64,000 bases of DNA from Candidatus Ozemibacter sibiricus (GTDB lineage Bacteria; Muiribacteriota; Ozemobacteria; Ozemobacterales; Ozemobacteraceae), in assembly GCA_003327425.1 (NCBI GenBank), contig QOQW01000030.1:1-64000 (forward strand), read 5' to 3'. Made by a program: the position numbers and the translations under genes. A model generated the notes under the pieces. It was not told the origin of the DNA and did not search any database. It saw only the letters and a list, made by a program, of their open reading frames with translations. Shown here one piece after another: positions 8,224-55,728 of the stretch; position 1 is the stretch's first letter, and every line of letters starts with the position of its first letter.

Positions 8224-10167
8224 ATGAGCAGCATTCCCCTCCCAGGGGCCGGCGCCCCGGCGCCGGGCACCCCGCCGACTCCCCCGGGGACTCCGGGACG
8301 CTCGTGGCCCAGGATCATGCTCGCCGTCGTGGCGGGCCTTTTCCTGTATCTGGGGTCGGGGTTCACCGCCAGCAGCCTGCAGACGCTCGATCCCGATCGC
8401 ACTTACGATACCGAGCCCTGGACCGGTCCGGCCGCGCTGCCGGGCGTGTTCACCAACTTCAATCCTCGCACCATTCCCGAGCTGCAGGCGGGGCGACCGA
8501 CGCCGGAGAAAGAGCCGGCCCCCGGGCTCGACTGGCTGCCCGCCCCCCGGGCCCGCGAGTTCGGCTCCCATCGGGTGCCGTTCCATCCCCCTTCCGAAGT
8601 CGCTCCGGGCGAGATGGGCACCAGCCTGCCTCTCGTCGATCGTCTGCCTCCCGGCTATACTGACCTCAATGAGCGCGAAGATGACCGGGTGTTCAGCTCG
8701 AACCTGTATACCGACACCACCATCTATGGGAACTGGGTCGACAAGAACAAGCACCTGTCGAGCAAGACCCGCGGCACCTTCTACGAGCAGAACCTGCGCT
8801 ACGATCTCTATACCACCCGCGCCAATGGCGATTCGCTGGCGGTGGTCGTCGACACCGTCCATAACAACGATAAACGCGAGTACAAGGAAGGCTTCACGCT
8901 CAACCAGCTCACCGTCGAATCGCGCACCGCCCGCTCCTTGCTGTCGTTCGGGCATTCCTACCCTGAATTCACACCGTTCACCATGACCCAGCAGCAGATG
9001 GGATTGTACGGGGTCCAGCGCTTCCAGAACACCGAGGTGCGCACCTTCACCGGCTATAAAGCGGTCGAGAAGGATGATCTGAAGACGCCCCGGCTGGTCA
9101 GCGGCCTGCGCGTCGAGCACCGGCATGACGACGCGGTGACGATCGGTCTCAATGCGGTTGGCACCCGCGATGTGCATGACAATCCCGGGGCCGATCGCAC
9201 CCTGCCCACCATTCGCAACAAGGTCTATTCGATGGATGTCAGCGTGCGGCCGACCGAGAACATCTGGGTCGATGGCGAGTACGCGCGCAGCGACACCGAT
9301 TTCGACCGCCGGGTGACCTCCGGCAACCAGCTCGATACCGCCTTCCGGTTCAAAGGGGGCTACGGGCGCGAGAACTACCGCGCCGAGGCGGGCGTCGAGC
9401 AGGCCGGCACCGCCTTTCTCACCTACCTCGGCGAAAGTCCCCGCGATGAACGGGCCTTCTTCGGCAATTTCTTCTACGAGCTGAACCGCTATGTCTCGAC
9501 CCGCATCGGCGGGCGCAGTTCGCGCGACAACCTCGACAACTACAAGCGCGATACCCTGGTGCGCAACCAGCCCGAGGTCCAGGTCACCGTGCGGCCCAGC
9601 GACTACTACCGCGATCTGCGGGTCGATTTCTTCTATCAGCCGCTGCATGAGTATTCCGACAACACCAGATTCGTCGATCGGTACCGCGACCTGATGTGGG
9701 TCGAGCTCAACCATCGGGCCGGGGCCCTGCGCTATTTCGCCGGACTCAGCTCGACCATCGACAAGGACAAGGTGGCCAGGATCAACGACCGCGACATCAA
9801 CCGCTTCGACCTCAAGCTGACCTGGGAATACGACTCGCAGAACCGGTTGTACGGTCTGGTGAGCCAGGAGCAGCTTTCGTACAAGGTGGCAGGGGGGCAG
9901 GATGTGATGAGCCTGTACGGGTTCGGCGGGCACTCTCAGTTCCATGAGGATGTCAGCCTGAACCTCGATTTCACGCATGAACTCAACGATCCCGCCAACG
10001 CCTCCTGGGATTCGAAGCACGATCGGCTCAACCTGTCGCTGACCAAGGAATACAACAACATGGCCCGTCTGATCCTCGATCTGCAGGGGTCCTCCCATCG
10101 GTTCACCCTGCCCGGCCGCGATTATTCCGATCTCACGGCCAAACTCCGCTTCTTGAGGTCGTTCTGA
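8224..10167 (+). CDS. outer-membrane beta-barrel protein, unclassified
   Basis: A 647-residue protein with a Pro-rich N-terminus, a hydrophobic export segment (about 28-48) and a long beta-rich body. The body consists of repeated short alternating strands rich in Tyr/Arg/Asp separated by Asp/Asn-rich turns. It ends in ...RFLRSF, matching the terminal Phe signature of outer-membrane barrels. I do not recognise a named family; porin-like or DUF-class barrel are both possible. The gene is 43 bp downstream of the LysM/M23 gene, and its stop is followed one base later by the FecR-like gene, so the products are probably made together at the outer membrane. Confidence 0.75.
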   Translation: MSSIPLPGAGAPAPGTPPTPPGTPGRSWPRIMLAVVAGLFLYLGSGFTASSLQTLDPDRTYDTEPWTGPAALPGVFTNFNPRTIPELQAGRPTPEKEPAPGLDWLPAPRAREFGSHRVPFHPPSEVAPGEMGTSLPLVDRLPPGYTDLNEREDDRVFSSNLYTDTTIYGNWVDKNKHLSSKTRGTFYEQNLRYDLYTTRANGDSLAVVVDTVHNNDKREYKEGFTLNQLTVESRTARSLLSFGHSYPEFTPFTMTQQQMGLYGVQRFQNTEVRTFTGYKAVEKDDLKTPRLVSGLRVEHRHDDAVTIGLNAVGTRDVHDNPGADRTLPTIRNKVYSMDVSVRPTENIWVDGEYARSDTDFDRRVTSGNQLDTAFRFKGGYGRENYRAEAGVEQAGTAFLTYLGESPRDERAFFGNFFYELNRYVSTRIGGRSSRDNLDNYKRDTLVRNQPEVQVTVRPSDYYRDLRVDFFYQPLHEYSDNTRFVDRYRDLMWVELNHRAGALRYFAGLSSTIDKDKVARINDRDINRFDLKLTWEYDSQNRLYGLVSQEQLSYKVAGGQDVMSLYGFGGHSQFHEDVSLNLDFTHELNDPANASWDSKHDRLNLSLTKEYNNMARLILDLQGSSHRFTLPGRDYSDLTAKLRFLRSF

Positions 10168-47304: not shown

Positions 47305-47441
47305 GTAGACCATCGCCCTGTTCCGGTGGATCGACGTGACGGCCCGCCGGGCTCTGCGGACCGGTCGTGACCGGCCCCCGCCAGGTTGTTTCACCGCCTG
47401 TGCTCCGGAGCATCGCGACATCCACCTCAGGGAGGCACCTC

Positions 47442-47951
47442 ATGGAAACCGTCGCCAACGGTCATCTCGTCACTGTTCACTACACCGGTCGTCTCGACAC
47501 GGGAGAGATCTTCGATACCAGCGAAGATCGCGAACCCCTCAAGTTCGTCATCGGCCGCGGCACCGTCATTCCCGGCTTCGAGAACGGCATTATCGGCATG
47601 TCGGTCGGGCAGCAGAAGAAAGTGATCGTTCCGCCTTCCCAGGGCTACGGCGAGCGCAACGAGAAACGCCTGGTCCGCATCGACCAGTCGCGCCTGGAGG
47701 GGCACCAACCGCGCGTGGGCATGCACATGCAGGTCGAGCTGTCCGATGGGCGGCTGGCCATCGCCACGATCACCGCGATTGAGAATGGGAAGGTCACGCT
47801 CGATCTGAACCATCCCCTGGCCGGTCGGACGCTCACCTTCGACATCCGCCTGCTCGAGATCGCCGACGGCAGCACCTGGCAGGACGAAGAATGCTGCGGC
47901 GAACACGACGGCCACTGCTGCGGCGAGCATGGAGATTCCTGCTGCGGGTGA
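47442..47951 (+). CDS. slyD: SlyD-type FKBP peptidyl-prolyl isomerase
   Basis: A 169-residue cytoplasmic FKBP. The core has VTVHYTGRLDTGEIFDTS, then an IF-domain-sized insert, and VELSDGRLAIATI with LDLNHPLAGRTLTFDI, all SlyD features. The C-terminus (about 148-169) is a metal-binding tail of CCGEH-type repeats (ECCGEHDGHCCGEHGDSCCG) with six Cys and three His. SlyD tails deliver nickel for hydrogenase maturation in E. coli; the hydrogenase-type genes near 62-64 kb make that role attractive here. ATG chosen behind GGGAGG. Confidence 0.92.
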   Translation: METVANGHLVTVHYTGRLDTGEIFDTSEDREPLKFVIGRGTVIPGFENGIIGMSVGQQKKVIVPPSQGYGERNEKRLVRIDQSRLEGHQPRVGMHMQVELSDGRLAIATITAIENGKVTLDLNHPLAGRTLTFDIRLLEIADGSTWQDEECCGEHDGHCCGEHGDSCCG

Positions 47952-48323: not shown

Positions 48324-48352
48324 GTTGATAATTCCTGCTCCTGGTGGTAGGA
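48324..48352 (+). promoter_or_regulatory. sigma70-type promoter of the fluoride operon
   Basis: TTGATA (48324-48329), 17 bp, TAGGAT (48347-48352) with extended TGG before the -10. Initiation near 48359 puts the fluoride aptamer at the very 5' end of the mRNA. Confidence 0.85.
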
Positions 48353-48365
48353 TGGGGCACGTGAT

Positions 48366-48415
48366 GGGGATGGGGTCCCCCCTCGAACGCCCAGGACGGC
48401 TGATGACTCCTACCG
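48366..48415 (+). promoter_or_regulatory. fluoride riboswitch (crcB motif)
   Basis: The 50-nt element has the layout of the crcB aptamer. GGGGATG is at 48366-48372; a GGGG/CCCC helix forms within the first third; a short GCC/GGC helix is at 48389-48391 and 48398-48400; the hallmark CTGATGACTCCTAC runs through 48413. GGGGT (48372-48376) pairs with ACTCC (48406-48410), one wobble included, as GGCAT pairs with ATGCC in known members, showing compensatory change. Just downstream, CTCCG/CGGAG (48424-48428, 48433-48437) folds over the Shine-Dalgarno GGAGGAG, and CTCCT of the aptamer could also pair with AGGAG. Translational control by fluoride is therefore likely. Confidence 0.92.
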
Positions 48416-48445
48416 TATCTTCACTCCGAAGCCGGAGGAGCAAGC

Positions 48446-49666
48446 ATGGCTGAAACCTGGTTCCTGGCGACCCTGTGGCTGGGGCTCGCCCTGGTGGCCA
48501 CCCTGGTCTCGATCTGGATGGGGATCGCCACTGCTCTTTCCGAGATCGTCGTCGGAACGGTCGCCCAGCTCATCATCGGGGCGATGTTCGGCAGCGCCCT
48601 GCTGACCGCCGATGTCTCCTGGATCAAATTCCTCTCCGGCACCGGGGCCATCCTGCTGACCTTCCTGGCCGGCGCGGAACTCGACCCGCGCATCTTCCGC
48701 CAGTACTGGAAGGAGGCGACGGTCGTCGGGTTCATCAGCTTCTTGAGCCCGTTCCTGGTGTGCGCCGGCGCCGCCTACTATTTTCTGCACTGGAGCGCCG
48801 ATGCCAGCTGGCTGGCGGGGGTCGCGCTGTCCACCACCTCGGTGGCGGTGGTCTATGCGGTCATGCTCGAATTCGGCCTCAACGAGACGAACTACGGCAA
48901 AACCCTGCTGGCGGCCTGCTTTGTCACCGACCTGGGCACGGTGCTGGCGTTGGGGTTCCTGTTCGCCCCGTTCTCGACGCGCACGCTCCTGTTTCTCGGG
49001 GCGGTTCTGGTCGGCTTCCTCATCCTGCCGTGGGTGACGCCCCGCTTCTTCGCTCGCTACGGGGGGCGGCCTTCGGAGCTGGAAGCGAAATTCCTCCTGC
49101 TCATCCTCTTCGGGTTCGGCGGTCTGGCGGTCTGGGCCGAGAGCGAAGCGGTGCTGCCCGCCTACCTGATCGGCATGATGCTGGCCGGCACCGTCGGCAA
49201 GGATCATGTGCTGATTCGGCGCTTGCGCACGCTGACCTTCGGGCTGCTGACCCCCTTCTATTTCATCCGGGCCGGGTCGCTGGTCTCGGTGCCGGCTCTG
49301 GTCGCCGCCCCGTCGGTGTTTCTCTGGCTCTTGCTCTTCAAGCTGGTGGCCAAGACGGTGGCGGTGTTCCCGGCCACGGTGGCCTTCGGCAACTCCCGAT
49401 CGGACGGCATGTACACCACCTTGTTGATGTCGACGGGTCTGACCTTCGGCAGCATCTCCGCCTTGTTCGGGTTGACCCATCAGATCATCGACACTGCCCA
49501 ATACTCGTTCCTGGTGGCAGCCGTCATCGCCAGCGCCGTGGTGCCCACCCTGCTCGCCAATGCCTATTTCCTGCCAGGGCACCTCCTGCGGCGCCCTGAG
49601 AAGGGTTTCGAGACTCCCCCGGCGCCGCCGGCGCCGGCCACCTCGACCGAAGGAGCGCCTGTATGA
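48446..49666 (+). CDS. CPA2-family cation/proton antiporter (fluoride-riboswitch controlled)
   Basis: A 406-residue inner-membrane transporter with about twelve helices of the CPA2/KefB-like monovalent cation:proton antiporter superfamily. Typical segments include IGAMFGSAL, GAILLTFLAGAELDP, ALSTTSVAVVYAVMLE, CFVTDLGTVLALG (Asp pair region) and LTPFYFIRAGS; there is no RCK/TrkA-N domain. Controlled by a fluoride riboswitch and co-transcribed with a Fluc channel, it probably helps survive fluoride entry, either by moving fluoride or by correcting pH and cation balance. SD GGAGGAG lies within a hairpin. It overlaps the UspA gene by 4 bp (ATGA). Confidence 0.92.
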   Translation: MAETWFLATLWLGLALVATLVSIWMGIATALSEIVVGTVAQLIIGAMFGSALLTADVSWIKFLSGTGAILLTFLAGAELDPRIFRQYWKEATVVGFISFLSPFLVCAGAAYYFLHWSADASWLAGVALSTTSVAVVYAVMLEFGLNETNYGKTLLAACFVTDLGTVLALGFLFAPFSTRTLLFLGAVLVGFLILPWVTPRFFARYGGRPSELEAKFLLLILFGFGGLAVWAESEAVLPAYLIGMMLAGTVGKDHVLIRRLRTLTFGLLTPFYFIRAGSLVSVPALVAAPSVFLWLLLFKLVAKTVAVFPATVAFGNSRSDGMYTTLLMSTGLTFGSISALFGLTHQIIDTAQYSFLVAAVIASAVVPTLLANAYFLPGHLLRRPEKGFETPPAPPAPATSTEGAPV

Positions 49667-50079
49667 TCAAGCGGATCCTGGCAGCGTACGATTCATCGGA
49701 ACAAGCTCTCAAAGCCTTCCAGTTCGCCCTCGACCTGGCGGCGAAGTTCCAGGCCGAGCTGCTCGTCCTGGCCGTAGCGCGTCCGCCCGAACCGGCAGAG
49801 GATGTCGAAATCGGCGCCGTGCTCGATACCGCCCGGGAGTTCTACCGCGAACATTTCCAGATGCTGAGAGAGGTGGCCGCCGCTCAGAACCTGACCATCG
49901 ACCCCACCATTCGGGTCGGTCATCCTGCCGACCAGATCCTGCGCATGGCCGAAGAGGAGCAGGTCGATCTGATCGTCATGGGGCATCGCGGCAAGAACTT
50001 CGTGGAACGCTGGCTGATGGGATCGGTATCCGATCGGGTGTTGAACCACGCCCCCTGCGCCGTCACCATCGTCCGGTGA
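49663..50079 (+). CDS. universal stress protein (UspA family)
   Basis: A 138-residue single-domain Usp. The ATP-binding signature G-x2-G-x9-G-S (GHRGKNFVERWLMGSVS) is intact, with VLAAYDSS-like beta1/alpha1 at the start and PCAVTIVR at the end. It probably binds ATP and modulates the neighbouring antiporter, as Usp domains do in many CPA transporters. ATGA overlap with the antiporter stop implies coupled translation within the fluoride operon. Confidence 0.95.
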   Translation: MIKRILAAYDSSEQALKAFQFALDLAAKFQAELLVLAVARPPEPAEDVEIGAVLDTAREFYREHFQMLREVAAAQNLTIDPTIRVGHPADQILRMAEEEQVDLIVMGHRGKNFVERWLMGSVSDRVLNHAPCAVTIVR

Positions 50080-50091
50080 GCGGGAGGCACC

Positions 50092-50466
50092 TTGGAGAAC
50101 GCCCTGTTGGTGATGGCGGGGGGGAGCCTGGGAGCCCTCAGCCGCTATCTGATCTCGCTGTTGGCGGTTTCCCTGTTCGGGACCGGGTTCCCCTGGGGAA
50201 CCCTGATCGTCAATCATCTGGGGTGCTTGCTCATCGGGTTCCTGTTGACGCTGGCCGAGCGGAATCTGTTGATCGGGCCGTCCCTGCGATTGTTCATGGT
50301 CACAGGGTACCTGGGCGCCCTGACCACCTTCTCTACCTACGCCTGGGAAAGCGTGAGCGCGGCCGGCAACGGCGACTGGCGCCTGGCCGGGACCAATCTG
50401 GTGGTGAACAATCTGGTGGGGTTCCTGCTGGTCCTGCTCGGCATCTCCCTGGCGAAACGGTTGTGA
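50092..50466 (+). CDS. crcB: fluoride ion channel CrcB/Fluc
   Basis: A 124-residue four-helix membrane protein that exports fluoride as a dual-topology dimer. Signatures: GGSLGALSRY, GTLIVNHLGCLLIGF with the pore Asn, and GYLGALTTFSTYAWE with the conserved Thr/Phe/Ser/Thr box. TTG 50092 is the start, behind GGGAGG, 12 bp after the UspA stop. This gene identifies the operon as a fluoride-resistance unit and agrees with the riboswitch at 48366. Confidence 0.97.
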   Translation: MENALLVMAGGSLGALSRYLISLLAVSLFGTGFPWGTLIVNHLGCLLIGFLLTLAERNLLIGPSLRLFMVTGYLGALTTFSTYAWESVSAAGNGDWRLAGTNLVVNNLVGFLLVLLGISLAKRL

Positions 50467-50479
50467 AAGGGGCATTCGC

Positions 50480-51766
50480 GTGCTGGCCTATTCCCTCATC
50501 CGCATCTATACCAGTGAGCGCGCGCGGTTCGACGGCAAGCCGCTCTGGGAAGGGATCATCCAGTTCGTCGCAGAACTGAAGATCGCGGCCCGCTGCTTCG
50601 TCAGCAAAGGCCTGGCTGGCTGCTTCGAGAACGGCGAGGTGGCCTTGCCGACCATCGAAGTGCTGGCCTATGACTTCCCGCTGCGGATCGACGTCCTGTT
50701 GCCGACCTCCGAACTGCCGCTCGTGCTGCCCGAACTGGAGGAGATCGTCACCGACGGGCTCATCACCGTCGACCCGGTGAACGTGGTCGCCCACAAGTCG
50801 AGCATGACGATCCTGCCCATGCACCTGCGGGTGCGCTCGGTCATGACGGCCGACCCGACCGTGGTCGCGCCGGAGACGCCCCTGGCCGAGGCGGTGCGGC
50901 TGCTGTTGGCGCGGGGGTTCAACGGGCTGCCGGTGGTCGATGCGCGGCGGCGCCCGGTCGGCATCCTCACCCAGGGCGATCTGATGACGCGCGGGGGGGT
51001 TCCCCTGCGCCTCGGCCTGCTCAGCGAATTCGCCTCCGACCAGCAGAGCGAGGCGCTGGCCAGGCTGGCCGGGCGGACCGTGGCCGAGATCATGACCAGC
51101 CCGGTCATGACGGTGGCGGCCGACCAGCCCCTGTCCGAAGCGGTGAAGATGATGCTGGACCGTGGCCTGAAACGGCTGCCGGTCGTGGGGACCTCAGGCG
51201 AGATCGTCGGCATGCTGGCGCGGTCGGATGTCTTCCGGGCCATTTCCCGGGAATCCCCCGACTGGGACCAGTTGCACCAGTCGTGCTTGACCGTCTCCAA
51301 TCTGACCCGGGTGCGCGACGTCATGGACCGCGATCTCGAGACCATCGCCCCCGATACTCCCGTGGCCGAAGTGCTGCGCAGCCTGTCCTTGCGGGGTCGC
51401 CAGCGGGCGGCCGTGGTCGATCGCGAAGGGCGTCTGCTCGGCCTGCTCACCGACAAGGATCTGCTGAGCGCATTCTCTGACCACAAGCCGGGGGTCTGGG
51501 CCTGGCTGGTGGCGAAGCTCCCGTTCTTCGATATCGGGCGGCAGTACCGCGATCTGTTGGAGCGGGCCCGCCAGACCTGCGCCGCCGATTTCATGCGCAA
51601 AGACCTGGTCACCGTGCATGAGGACGCCCCGATCGACGAAGCCATCCGGCTGATGACCCGGCACCATCTGAAACGCCTGCCGGTGGTGGACAGCCAGGGC
51701 ATCTTCCGCGGGCTGATCGGGCGCGATGCGCTGCTGCGGGCCAACCTGGCGAAAGGGGCCGGCTGA
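50480..51766 (+). CDS. DUF190-CBS4 protein of the fluoride operon
   Basis: A 428-residue cytoplasmic protein. The N-terminal DUF190 domain (about 1-105; LIRIYTSERARFDGKPLWEGIIQFV) is a PII-like fold often encoded next to crcB. Four CBS motifs follow (about 118-170, 200-255, 275-330, 370-425), each with the VVxxxPLxEA and LPVVDxxG pattern. CBS modules sense adenine nucleotides. A regulatory role over the channel or antiporter is likely. GTG start at 50480, 13 bp after crcB. Last gene of the operon, with no clear terminator before the convergent azoR. Confidence 0.93.
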   Translation: MLAYSLIRIYTSERARFDGKPLWEGIIQFVAELKIAARCFVSKGLAGCFENGEVALPTIEVLAYDFPLRIDVLLPTSELPLVLPELEEIVTDGLITVDPVNVVAHKSSMTILPMHLRVRSVMTADPTVVAPETPLAEAVRLLLARGFNGLPVVDARRRPVGILTQGDLMTRGGVPLRLGLLSEFASDQQSEALARLAGRTVAEIMTSPVMTVAADQPLSEAVKMMLDRGLKRLPVVGTSGEIVGMLARSDVFRAISRESPDWDQLHQSCLTVSNLTRVRDVMDRDLETIAPDTPVAEVLRSLSLRGRQRAAVVDREGRLLGLLTDKDLLSAFSDHKPGVWAWLVAKLPFFDIGRQYRDLLERARQTCAADFMRKDLVTVHEDAPIDEAIRLMTRHHLKRLPVVDSQGIFRGLIGRDALLRANLAKGAG

Positions 51767-51789: not shown

Positions 51790-52410
51790 TCAGAGGGCGA
51801 CCTGTCGCGCGGCGGCGACCGCCTGCGCCAGCTTCTGATTGGCCACCTCGGGGCCGGCGCCCAGCATCGGCTGGGCATGGATGAAGATCGGATCGGTGAT
51901 GCCGATGAACCCCAGCATGGTGCGCAGGGAGCTTTCCAGGTGATCCATGGCGCGGGCGGGGCCTTCGCTGTAGTCGCCGCCCCGGCTGGTCACGACGATC
52001 ACCCGCTTGCCCTTGGCGAGGCCCTCGGGGCCGTTCTCGGTGTAGCGGAACAGGTGGCGAGGCTGGATGATCACGTCGAAGTAGTGCTTCAACACATAGG
52101 GCATGCCGAAGTTCCACATCGGGGAGCTGATCAGAACGATGTCAGCGGCCTTGAACCGCTCGATATGGGCGAGGATCGGCTCCCAGGCCGGCCGGGTCTC
52201 GTCGTCGAGGTCCTTGCCGCTGAGCAGGCGATACTTGCCGTCGGTGGCCTTGAGGGTCATGGGCGGCAGTTCTTCGGCGAACAGGTCGAGGGTGTCGATC
52301 CGGCCGTCGGGGTGCTGTTCGCGGAAGCGAGCGAGCACCGACTGGGCGATCTTCAGGGTGTTGGATTGCTCGCCTCGAGGAGAGGCGATGATGTGCAGCA
52401 GGGTTTTCAT
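51790..52410 (-). CDS. azoR: FMN-dependent NADH:azo/quinone reductase
   Basis: A 206-residue flavodoxin-fold oxidoreductase of the AzoR family. It shows LLHIIASPRGEQSNTLKIA at the FMN phosphate loop, SSPMWNFGMPYVLKHYFD at the flavin ring and TSRGGDYSEG. It reduces quinones and azo compounds with NADH and protects against electrophiles. The ATG overlaps the stop of the upstream marR gene (ATGA at 52410-52407), so the pair is co-regulated. SD is AAGGAGG. Confidence 0.95.
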   Translation of the reverse strand: MKTLLHIIASPRGEQSNTLKIAQSVLARFREQHPDGRIDTLDLFAEELPPMTLKATDGKYRLLSGKDLDDETRPAWEPILAHIERFKAADIVLISSPMWNFGMPYVLKHYFDVIIQPRHLFRYTENGPEGLAKGKRVIVVTSRGGDYSEGPARAMDHLESSLRTMLGFIGITDPIFIHAQPMLGAGPEVANQKLAQAVAAARQVAL

Positions 52411-53018
52411 GGGGTCCTCCTTGGATGGACAGGGTGGCCACCGCGGGGAATCGCGGCGGGGGCGTGGGGTGACGGACGGGGGGAGCGGGCCTGGCGGACA
52501 CGACCAGGATCGGAGCCGTGCGGCGGGCGGGGCCGGGAGGCGACGCTCTTCCGTTCAGGGGATGGCGGGTAAGGGTCGAGGGACAGGCCGAGTTTGCGAC
52601 AGAGGGCGGCCAGCCTGGTCTGTTCGGCCGCGGTCAGCCCGCGGAAGGCAGCGGTGACGACCTGGACATGCCGGGGCAGGAGTCTGGCGACCAGCGCGTG
52701 GCCACGTGGGGTCAAGGCCACCGGTCGACACCGCCGGTCGGCGGACGGCTGGCGGACGATCAGGCCCTGACGAACCAGATTGTCGAGGACCAGGGTCAGG
52801 TTGCCCGGCGATTTCAGGATCTTGCGGCCGAGATCGCCGGGAGTGAGGGGCCCGAGGTGGAACAGGGCCTCGAGCACGCCGAACTGGCTCTCGGTCAGAC
52901 CGGCCGCCTCGAAGACAGTACGAGTGTGCCGCGCCACGCTCGCCGCGGCGCGCAAGAGCTTGATGAAAGCGTCGAGGGCGCGGACTTCGGCGGTCGTTCC
53001 CTGGTAATGCGTACTCAT
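52407..53018 (-). CDS. MarR-family transcriptional regulator
   Basis: A 203-residue winged-helix regulator. The MarR core spans about 12-150 (LTESQFGVLEALFHLGPLTPGDLGRKIL and NLVRQGLIVRQPSADRRCRPVALT as recognition helix and wing). A further 50 residues are a Pro/Arg/Ser-rich tail, unusual for the family, which ends exactly at an ATGA overlap with azoR. Start at 53018 is favoured; an in-frame ATG at 53057 would lie upstream of the predicted transcript start. Two palindromes in the AT-rich promoter look like its operators, suggesting autorepression relieved by electrophiles. Confidence 0.92.
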   Translation of the reverse strand: MSTHYQGTTAEVRALDAFIKLLRAAASVARHTRTVFEAAGLTESQFGVLEALFHLGPLTPGDLGRKILKSPGNLTLVLDNLVRQGLIVRQPSADRRCRPVALTPRGHALVARLLPRHVQVVTAAFRGLTAAEQTRLAALCRKLGLSLDPYPPSPERKSVASRPRPPHGSDPGRVRQARSPRPSPHAPAAIPRGGHPVHPRRTP

Positions 53019-53043
53019 AAGGTTTGGCAATTCCTTCAATGTA

Positions 53044-53094
53044 AAAATGTTCGACATCAAAATAAATGTCAAGGCAAAAGTTAGATTTTTCTAA
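53044..53094 (-). promoter_or_regulatory. marR-azoR promoter with palindromic operators
   Basis: AT-rich patch in a GC-rich genome. On the minus strand a perfect TTGACA -35 (53072-53067) stands 17 bp from a weak CATTTT -10 (53049-53044). GACAT-N8-ATGTC (53053-53070) overlaps the -35 and spacer, and TTAGA-N4-TCTAA (53081-53094) lies just upstream. Both are symmetric and of a size suited to a MarR dimer. Confidence 0.65.
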
Positions 53095-55608: not shown

Positions 55609-55636
55609 GAAGGGGGCCAGGCGCCCCGGCTACCCT

Positions 55637-55728
55637 GGAGAGGACGGGACTGGTGTCCCACCTGGTCTTCAAAACCAGCAGCGGGCGGATAACACCGTCT
55701 GTGGCAGGTTCGATTCCTGCCCTCTCTG
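55637..55728 (+). tRNA. selC: tRNA-Sec (anticodon TCA)
   Basis: A 92-nt tRNA with the special selenocysteine architecture. It has a GGAGAGG/CCTCTCT acceptor, a long D stem (GGGAC/GTCCC) and an anticodon arm CTGGT-CTTCAAA-ACCAG with UCA at 55669-55671. A long variable arm follows, then T arm GCAGG-TTCGATT-CCTGC and the G73 discriminator characteristic of tRNA-Sec. CCA is not encoded. It lies just upstream of selA-selB. Confidence 0.96.

Follow-up and report, generated by a model that had tools for sequence, protein, structure and literature searches.

Fluoride riboswitches preceding Na+/H+ antiporters go back to Baker et al. 2012 (as far as that work is relayed in PMC11139923), and the crcB motif had been found with K+ transport genes by Weinberg et al. 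2010 (PMC2864571). After exporters, the genes most often found with fluoride riboswitches are those for Na+/H+ antiporters, and an exporter is present in >85% of strains among the GEBA genomes (PMC11139923). A 2024 review counts two bacterial fluoride exporters and sees riboswitch-linked antiporters as pH-balance helpers. Fluoride riboswitches acting on translation are known from Pseudomonas syringae and Burkholderia pseudomallei (PMC13273304), and the FRM operon of Enterobacter cloacae (ppaC-uspA-eno-gpmA-crcB-orf5249) has been studied through induction and knock-outs (PMC5533749). Here we analyse an operon (region 48324-51766) of Candidatus Ozemibacter sibiricus (Riflebacteria), contained in a stretch of 64,000 nt of contig QOQW01000030.1 -hereafter, the window- from a draft genome of 5.68 Mb that is 97.9% complete. 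In it, a fluoride aptamer precedes the genes for a CPA2-type cation:proton antiporter, a universal stress protein (Usp), a CrcB/Fluc fluoride channel, and a protein with a DUF190 and four CBS domains. Fluoride riboswitches in front of antiporters, UspA, and CrcB being already known, the operon combines known parts in a new way. What is new is the strong fluoride linkage of its antiporter clade, and the occurrence of this clade in genomes without CrcB/CLC.

The locus is very probably a fluoride-inducible resistance operon, in which a translational switch governs four coupled genes. From the computed aptamer, gene identities, layout, Shine-Dalgarno (SD) pairing, and fluoride linkage of the antiporter clade, we infer how it would work. 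At low fluoride, the CUCCU strand of the aptamer would pair with the SD AGGAG and keep the start of the antiporter gene closed. Fluoride would enter as HF, dissociate, and bind the aptamer with Mg2+; the pseudoknot would then capture CUCCU, freeing the SD so that translation could begin, and the three downstream genes would be coupled through an ATGA overlap and gaps of 12-13 nt. Driven by the membrane potential, F- would leave through the Fluc channel. The antiporter would swap protons for K+ or Na+, thereby coping with the proton load or with the pH gradient behind HF accumulation.

The fluoride aptamer and its predicted translational switch

An initial annotation of this DNA had placed a crcB aptamer at 48366-48415. 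This proved to be the core of a match to the RF01734 covariance model, run on the whole window with cmscan (48357-48419, forward strand; score 44.1 bits, gathering threshold 34, E 6e-9). The window aptamer keeps all the columns that are invariant in 38 related aptamers. Over these 38 sequences, 100% of the cells of P1 and pseudoknot pairs are paired, with 28 doubly changed cells vs 9.2 in shuffles, and the pairs of both helices are all standard in 38/38, with one G.U in the window copy. The GGGGT/ACTCC helix had been described as compensatory: it is present and covaries over the 38 relatives, but the window copy, with its G.U, has no compensatory change (the consensus is GGAGU/ACUCC). Covariation comes instead from relatives with GGGGU/ACCCC and from an E. 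coli plasmid copy with GGCAT/ATGCC, the latter judged by eye. Aptamer counts throughout are based on the Rfam model; regular expressions overlooked many of the aptamers it detected.

As the folding energy of the whole leader is unremarkable (z -0.93), masking of the SD was assessed through its opening cost. In the free RNA of the window leader, CUCCU and AGGAG are predicted to pair with a probability of ~0.98-1.0, in a helix lengthened by CCG/CGG. Opening the SD would cost 8.28 kcal/mol in the free RNA vs 2.24 with the aptamer folded, and 7.56 vs 2.15 kcal/mol in L003, the nearest relative at 92% identity, which maintains the CUCCU:AGGAG helix although its loop has diverged. A free-minus-folded difference as large as that of the window was obtained with 5.5% of shuffled linkers. 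No intrinsic terminator was found between the aptamer and the start codon, with neither a T-run nor a terminator-like hairpin within 48419-48446, and for this reason translational ON control of the operon is likely. The idea that the aptamer CTCCT pairs with the SD AGGAG without a terminator, also present in the initial annotation, is borne out by the predicted pairing, the drop in opening cost, and the conservation in L003.

Some observations weigh against such a switch. The folded state was modelled by reserving the pseudoknot strands, so that the energies of the pseudoknot and of Mg-F fall outside the calculation. Besides, a second CUCC near 48425 forms a weaker hairpin with the SD that persists when the aptamer is folded, and the ON state could therefore be leaky or ribosome-dependent. 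Finally, many riboswitches of the antiporter clade use overlapping terminators and not SD masking: among the 48 clade aptamers (the window included) located at most ~600 nt from the antiporter, a terminator overlaps the aptamer strand in 17, a T-run follows a non-overlapping hairpin in 12, and 19 have none. The same genome contains a second fluoride riboswitch (G000:C6:97019-97080, equivalent to L084:5020-5081; 55 bits) in which CUCCUGC faces GCAGGAG followed by T6, forming an overlapping terminator hairpin of -27 kcal/mol. Because of this pairing, one genome appears to use the same aptamer strand in two ways, as SD mask and as terminator. Transcriptional attenuation of the operon, which would fit both these 17 clade aptamers and the terminator of the second riboswitch, is nonetheless very improbable to us given the lack of a T-run or terminator-like hairpin in 48419-48446, even if transcription might still end there in a Rho-dependent manner.

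The genes behind the second riboswitch code for a HAD-like hydrolase, a dynamin-family GTPase, and a MutS domain-V protein. Both mutS (PMC2864571) and HAD (PMC11139923) genes have long been associated with fluoride riboswitch RNA, and seven other loci have the same HAD gene close to the antiporter.

The antiporter clade across bacteria

A scan of the collection gave 80 loci homologous to the antiporter, with 49-92% identity. Seventy-five of these come with upstream DNA of 600 nt or more, and 62 of the 75, from several phyla, have a fluoride aptamer upstream and on the same strand, at a distance of up to 600 nt in 47 and of up to 1500 nt in 60. Since a genome of several megabases holds only a few aptamers, a chance association is excluded, and the clade is strongly fluoride-linked. 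Usp comes directly after the antiporter in 58/80 loci, and it is this pair, frequently lacking CrcB, that is conserved more widely. The survey of riboswitch-linked clusters proposed in the initial annotation shows that the four-gene cassette recurs, with identical gene order, in L003, L005 (Desulfoferrobacter, Thermodesulfobacteriota), L011 (Nitrospirota), and L035; in L031, the aptamer lies between CrcB-DUF190/CBS and antiporter-Usp.

Other arrangements were also seen. In L004 (6215-8622), from a genome of the same genus, antiporter-CrcB-DUF190/CBS stands without an intact adjacent Usp, of which only a 38-residue match is found after DUF190/CBS, and a second fluoride aptamer on the opposite strand (8561-8622) faces the operon. 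In L049, L050, and L051 -two of the three lying in Bryobacteraceae metagenome-assembled genomes- a CBS-rich protein comes after the clade antiporter, and the fetched DNA contains no CrcB.

The antiporter is also carried by plasmids (38 records) of Klebsiella, Citrobacter, Enterobacter, E. coli, and others. The E. coli plasmid copy (L147, NZ_CP067312.1, 5800-10965) comprises antiporter, Usp, and two MutS-like genes, and its leader is aptamer-like, with the covaried pseudoknot GGCAT/ATGCC (again by eye). In the tree, the window is nested close to Thermodesulfobacteriota and Myxococcota (88/83 support), and L093, a homologue from the same family, is distant. This placement suggests horizontal transfer of the cassette, a reading made uncertain by the long branches of the tree.

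We looked for known exporters in 36 genomes whose antiporter locus is devoid of CrcB: 26 had no CrcB anywhere, and 21 had neither CrcB nor CLC above cut-off. Because this set was selected, a less biased sample was taken, an even draw of 121 genomes from the order to which Thermodesulfovibrio sp. N1 (Nitrospirota) belongs. The antiporter clade is present in 29 of them, CrcB in 54, and CLC in 53, a count that includes chloride transporters and renders the figure for absence conservative. In these genomes, which are related rather than independent and mostly drafts of unknown completeness, both CrcB and CLC are missing from 20/29 with the antiporter vs 26/92 without it (Fisher p 1.4e-4, relatedness ignored). 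Taken separately, the association with the antiporter gives p 2.6e-5 for CLC and p 0.053 for CrcB. Antiporter and CrcB co-occur in 8 genomes, always within about 2 kb of each other. Among the 20 exporter-free genomes, 18 have the aptamer directly before the antiporter (the remaining two loci hold partial genes), and the operon of Thermodesulfovibrio sp. N1 consists of aptamer, antiporter, and Usp only. Being riboswitch-linked in genomes that lack both exporters, the antiporter is possibly a resistance mechanism of its own.

Possible roles of the antiporter

The window antiporter matches PF00999 with 116 bits (E 2e-33), and the CPA fold is supported by its AlphaFold2 (AF2) model (predicted local distance difference test, pLDDT, 86.6), for which Foldseek retrieves NapA and KefC with a TMq of about 0.7. 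The same two proteins are its best sequence-profile matches among solved structures; a profile was required, as a single-sequence search of solved structures gave no match. These results support the CPA2 assignment initially made, with TIGR00932 -the NCBIfam CPA2 model- matched below its cut-off (102.4 vs 238.3 bits). By sequence, the protein is thus placed within the CPA superfamily and outside the named TIGR00932 subfamily. The KefC equivalog model also stays below cut-off (27.1 vs 752 bits), and a Pfam scan found no RCK domain in the antiporter. D162 and K303 are invariant over 50 homologues, and residue 161 is T (32) or N (18), never D. D162 aligns with NapA D157 and KefC D156, and K303 with KefC K307. 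According to the CPA motif rule, K at position 8 combined with a polar position 6 points to electroneutral exchange, and a Thr in the first position of the TM4 motif to K+ selectivity (PMC6181914). With T/N at position 6 and K at position 8, this rule predicts an electroneutral antiporter; its Thr at motif position 1 agrees with K+ selectivity, and position 4 is Val. The ion, stoichiometry, and direction of transport proposed for it here are inferences.

One role that we find plausible, if somewhat short of an even chance, is that of pH homeostasis alone, the antiporter expelling protons after HF entry and contributing nothing in the absence of an exporter. The literature sees riboswitch-linked Na+/H+ antiporters in this light (PMC11139923), and the window antiporter does accompany CrcB. 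Yet in the order that we tested the clade is not enriched with known exporters, rather the opposite, and a higher internal pH would trap more HF.

A tentative alternative is that antiporter-Usp forms a stand-alone fluoride-resistance system in many bacteria without Fluc/CLC-F, acting either by direct export of F- or by a Kef-like K+/H+ exchange through which the pH gradient responsible for HF accumulation would collapse, and that the Riflebacteria operon joins this system to Fluc-DUF190/CBS. Between these two modes, we favour Kef-like exchange. The antiporter and Usp would then move K+ out and H+ in, lowering cytoplasmic pH under fluoride stress: operon and switch would be as proposed above, but the usual outward pumping of protons would be reversed. 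HF equilibrates across the membrane, so the ratio of internal to external F- is set by the pH difference, and acidification alone would limit F- accumulation, Fluc or no Fluc. KefC is among the top sequence and fold matches, the T/N in place of D at position 6 and the Thr that opens the TM4 motif fit electroneutral exchange and K+ selectivity, respectively (PMC6181914), and activated KefC lowers cytosolic pH by 1-2 units, with a protective effect (PMC11150392). The riboswitch-linked antiporter is, moreover, common in genomes without CrcB and CLC. On the other hand, position 4 is Val, whereas Kef proteins have Thr, the RCK domain is absent, and sequence cannot reveal the direction of transport, so that we consider Kef-like exchange possible but doubtful.

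Direct export by the clade, which would be a third bacterial exporter beside Fluc and CLC-F with the Fluc of the operon as an addition, is unlikely: the exporter-free genomes (20/29 vs 26/92, Fisher p 1.4e-4 with relatedness ignored; 18/20 with an adjacent aptamer) and the Thermodesulfovibrio sp. N1 operon, with riboswitch, antiporter, and Usp alone, would agree with it, but the invariant Asp and Lys of the CPA cation site argue for a cation/proton substrate, the genomes are drafts, other exporters may exist, and the association comes mainly from CLC (CrcB alone p 0.053).

A search of the literature returned no paper treating the riboswitch-linked antiporter as a stand-alone system. A clade that retains its fluoride switch in genomes without both exporters makes a third resistance mechanism directly testable. 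If true, this mechanism could account for the fluoride tolerance of thermophilic and groundwater bacteria, and antiporter-Usp would be a compact two-gene cassette to try in laboratory hosts engineered to break carbon-fluorine bonds.

Operon layout, partner proteins, and related operons

The four tightly packed genes of the initial annotation, CrcB included, were recovered by Pfam as Na_H_Exchanger, Usp, CRCB, and DUF190 with 4 CBS (Table 1). The start of Usp overlaps the antiporter stop as ATGA, and gaps of 12 and 13 nt precede CrcB and DUF190/CBS, respectively. The promoter reported earlier was found again in a consensus scan, which predicts 2 promoter-like sites in the region vs 0.5 expected; from its position, transcription would start a few nt 5' of P1. 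In a genome-wide family search, PF00999, CrcB, and DUF190 each occur once in the host genome, every one of them inside the operon.

Table 1. Features of the fluoride operon (window positions).
Feature	Position	Strand	Evidence
Promoter, sigma-70-type, TTGATA-17-TAGGAT, TG ahead of -10 (predicted)	48325..48353	+	Consensus scan, 9/12 matches
Fluoride (crcB) riboswitch aptamer	48357..48419	+	RF01734 match; pair covariation in 38 relatives
Aptamer 3' strand CUCCU; predicted pseudoknot strand (fluoride-bound) / anti-SD (free)	48407..48411 (approximate)	+	Sequence; pair probabilities
SD region with GGAGGAG, predicted masked in free RNA	48433..48440 (approximate)	+	Opening cost; helix kept in L003
CPA2-type cation:proton antiporter, 406 aa, without RCK domain	48446..49666	+	PF00999 E 2e-33
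Universal stress protein (Usp), 138 aa, ATP-binding-type motif GHRGKNFVERWLMGS	49663..50079	+	PF00582 E 3e-37
CrcB/Fluc fluoride channel, 124 aa, TTG start	50092..50466	+	PF02537 E 2e-25; TIGR00494 above cut-off
DUF190 (PII-like) domain then four CBS domains, 428 aa, GTG start	50480..51766	+	PF02641 E 2e-16; 4 CBS stretches

CrcB exceeds the cut-offs of PF02537 (89.5 vs 32.9 bits) and TIGR00494 (85.8 vs 80.45 bits) and matches solved Fluc structures. Of its pore residues, Asn41 and Phe80 are kept, and the second Phe is Tyr83 in the window, L003, and L004. As it is the only CrcB found in the genome, the Fluc channel is presumably a homodimer. In Usp, the G-2X-G-9X-G[S/T] motif spans residues 107-121; the ATP-binding motif is present in 53/60 Usp matches of the clade (taken under more permissive limits, with a copy of the window locus among them), the exceptions including truncated loci. 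DUF190 and CBS are both above cut-off in one frame, both families are found in 7/7 aligned relatives, and the G-x-x-[S/T/A]-x-x-D motif appears in CBS 1-3. The AF2 model of this protein is poor (pLDDT 67.9; predicted TM score, pTM, 0.37) and was used for resemblance alone, with Foldseek relating its CBS part to AMPK-gamma-like proteins. The expected vicinity of DUF190 and crcB held, DUF190 lying directly 3' and on the same strand in 8/9 DUF190-bearing genomes checked; a literature search for DUF190 with CBS or with CrcB found no relevant paper. Usp and the DUF190/CBS protein would probably act as partners that respond to adenine nucleotides. They might tune the antiporter or the channel, making the operon a "nucleotide-tuned pH module", although binding motifs such as theirs do not establish a function. 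In the genome of L011 (G042:C150:23358-24008), two tandem DUF190 domains share one 246-residue frame directly after CrcB.

Outside the operon, the window encodes an FKBP-type isomerase with a His/Cys-rich tail, a SlyD-like metal-binding end, on the 5' side (47367-47951), and a convergent flavodoxin-fold reductase dependent on flavin mononucleotide, adjoining a MarR-family regulator (51790-53072, reverse strand). It also contains a selenocysteine tRNA (55636-55728; RF01852, 60.9 bits), on account of which the host organism probably makes selenoproteins.

With KefC and NapA, the antiporter shares the fold, the essential Asp, and the Lys of a later helix, but identity is ~20%, T/N replaces Q/D before the Asp, and it has a neighbouring Usp and no RCK. 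The riboswitches of P. syringae and B. pseudomallei (PMC13273304) are, like that of the window, fluoride aptamers without a terminator, although they lead other genes. In the E. cloacae FRM operon, uspA and crcB are likewise under one fluoride riboswitch, with fluoride-inhibited enzymes where the window has the antiporter and DUF190/CBS. The published riboswitch-antiporter operons have, as here, a fluoride aptamer before a cation:proton antiporter and/or CrcB; the window differs from them in joining antiporter-Usp with CrcB-DUF190/4CBS in one operon.

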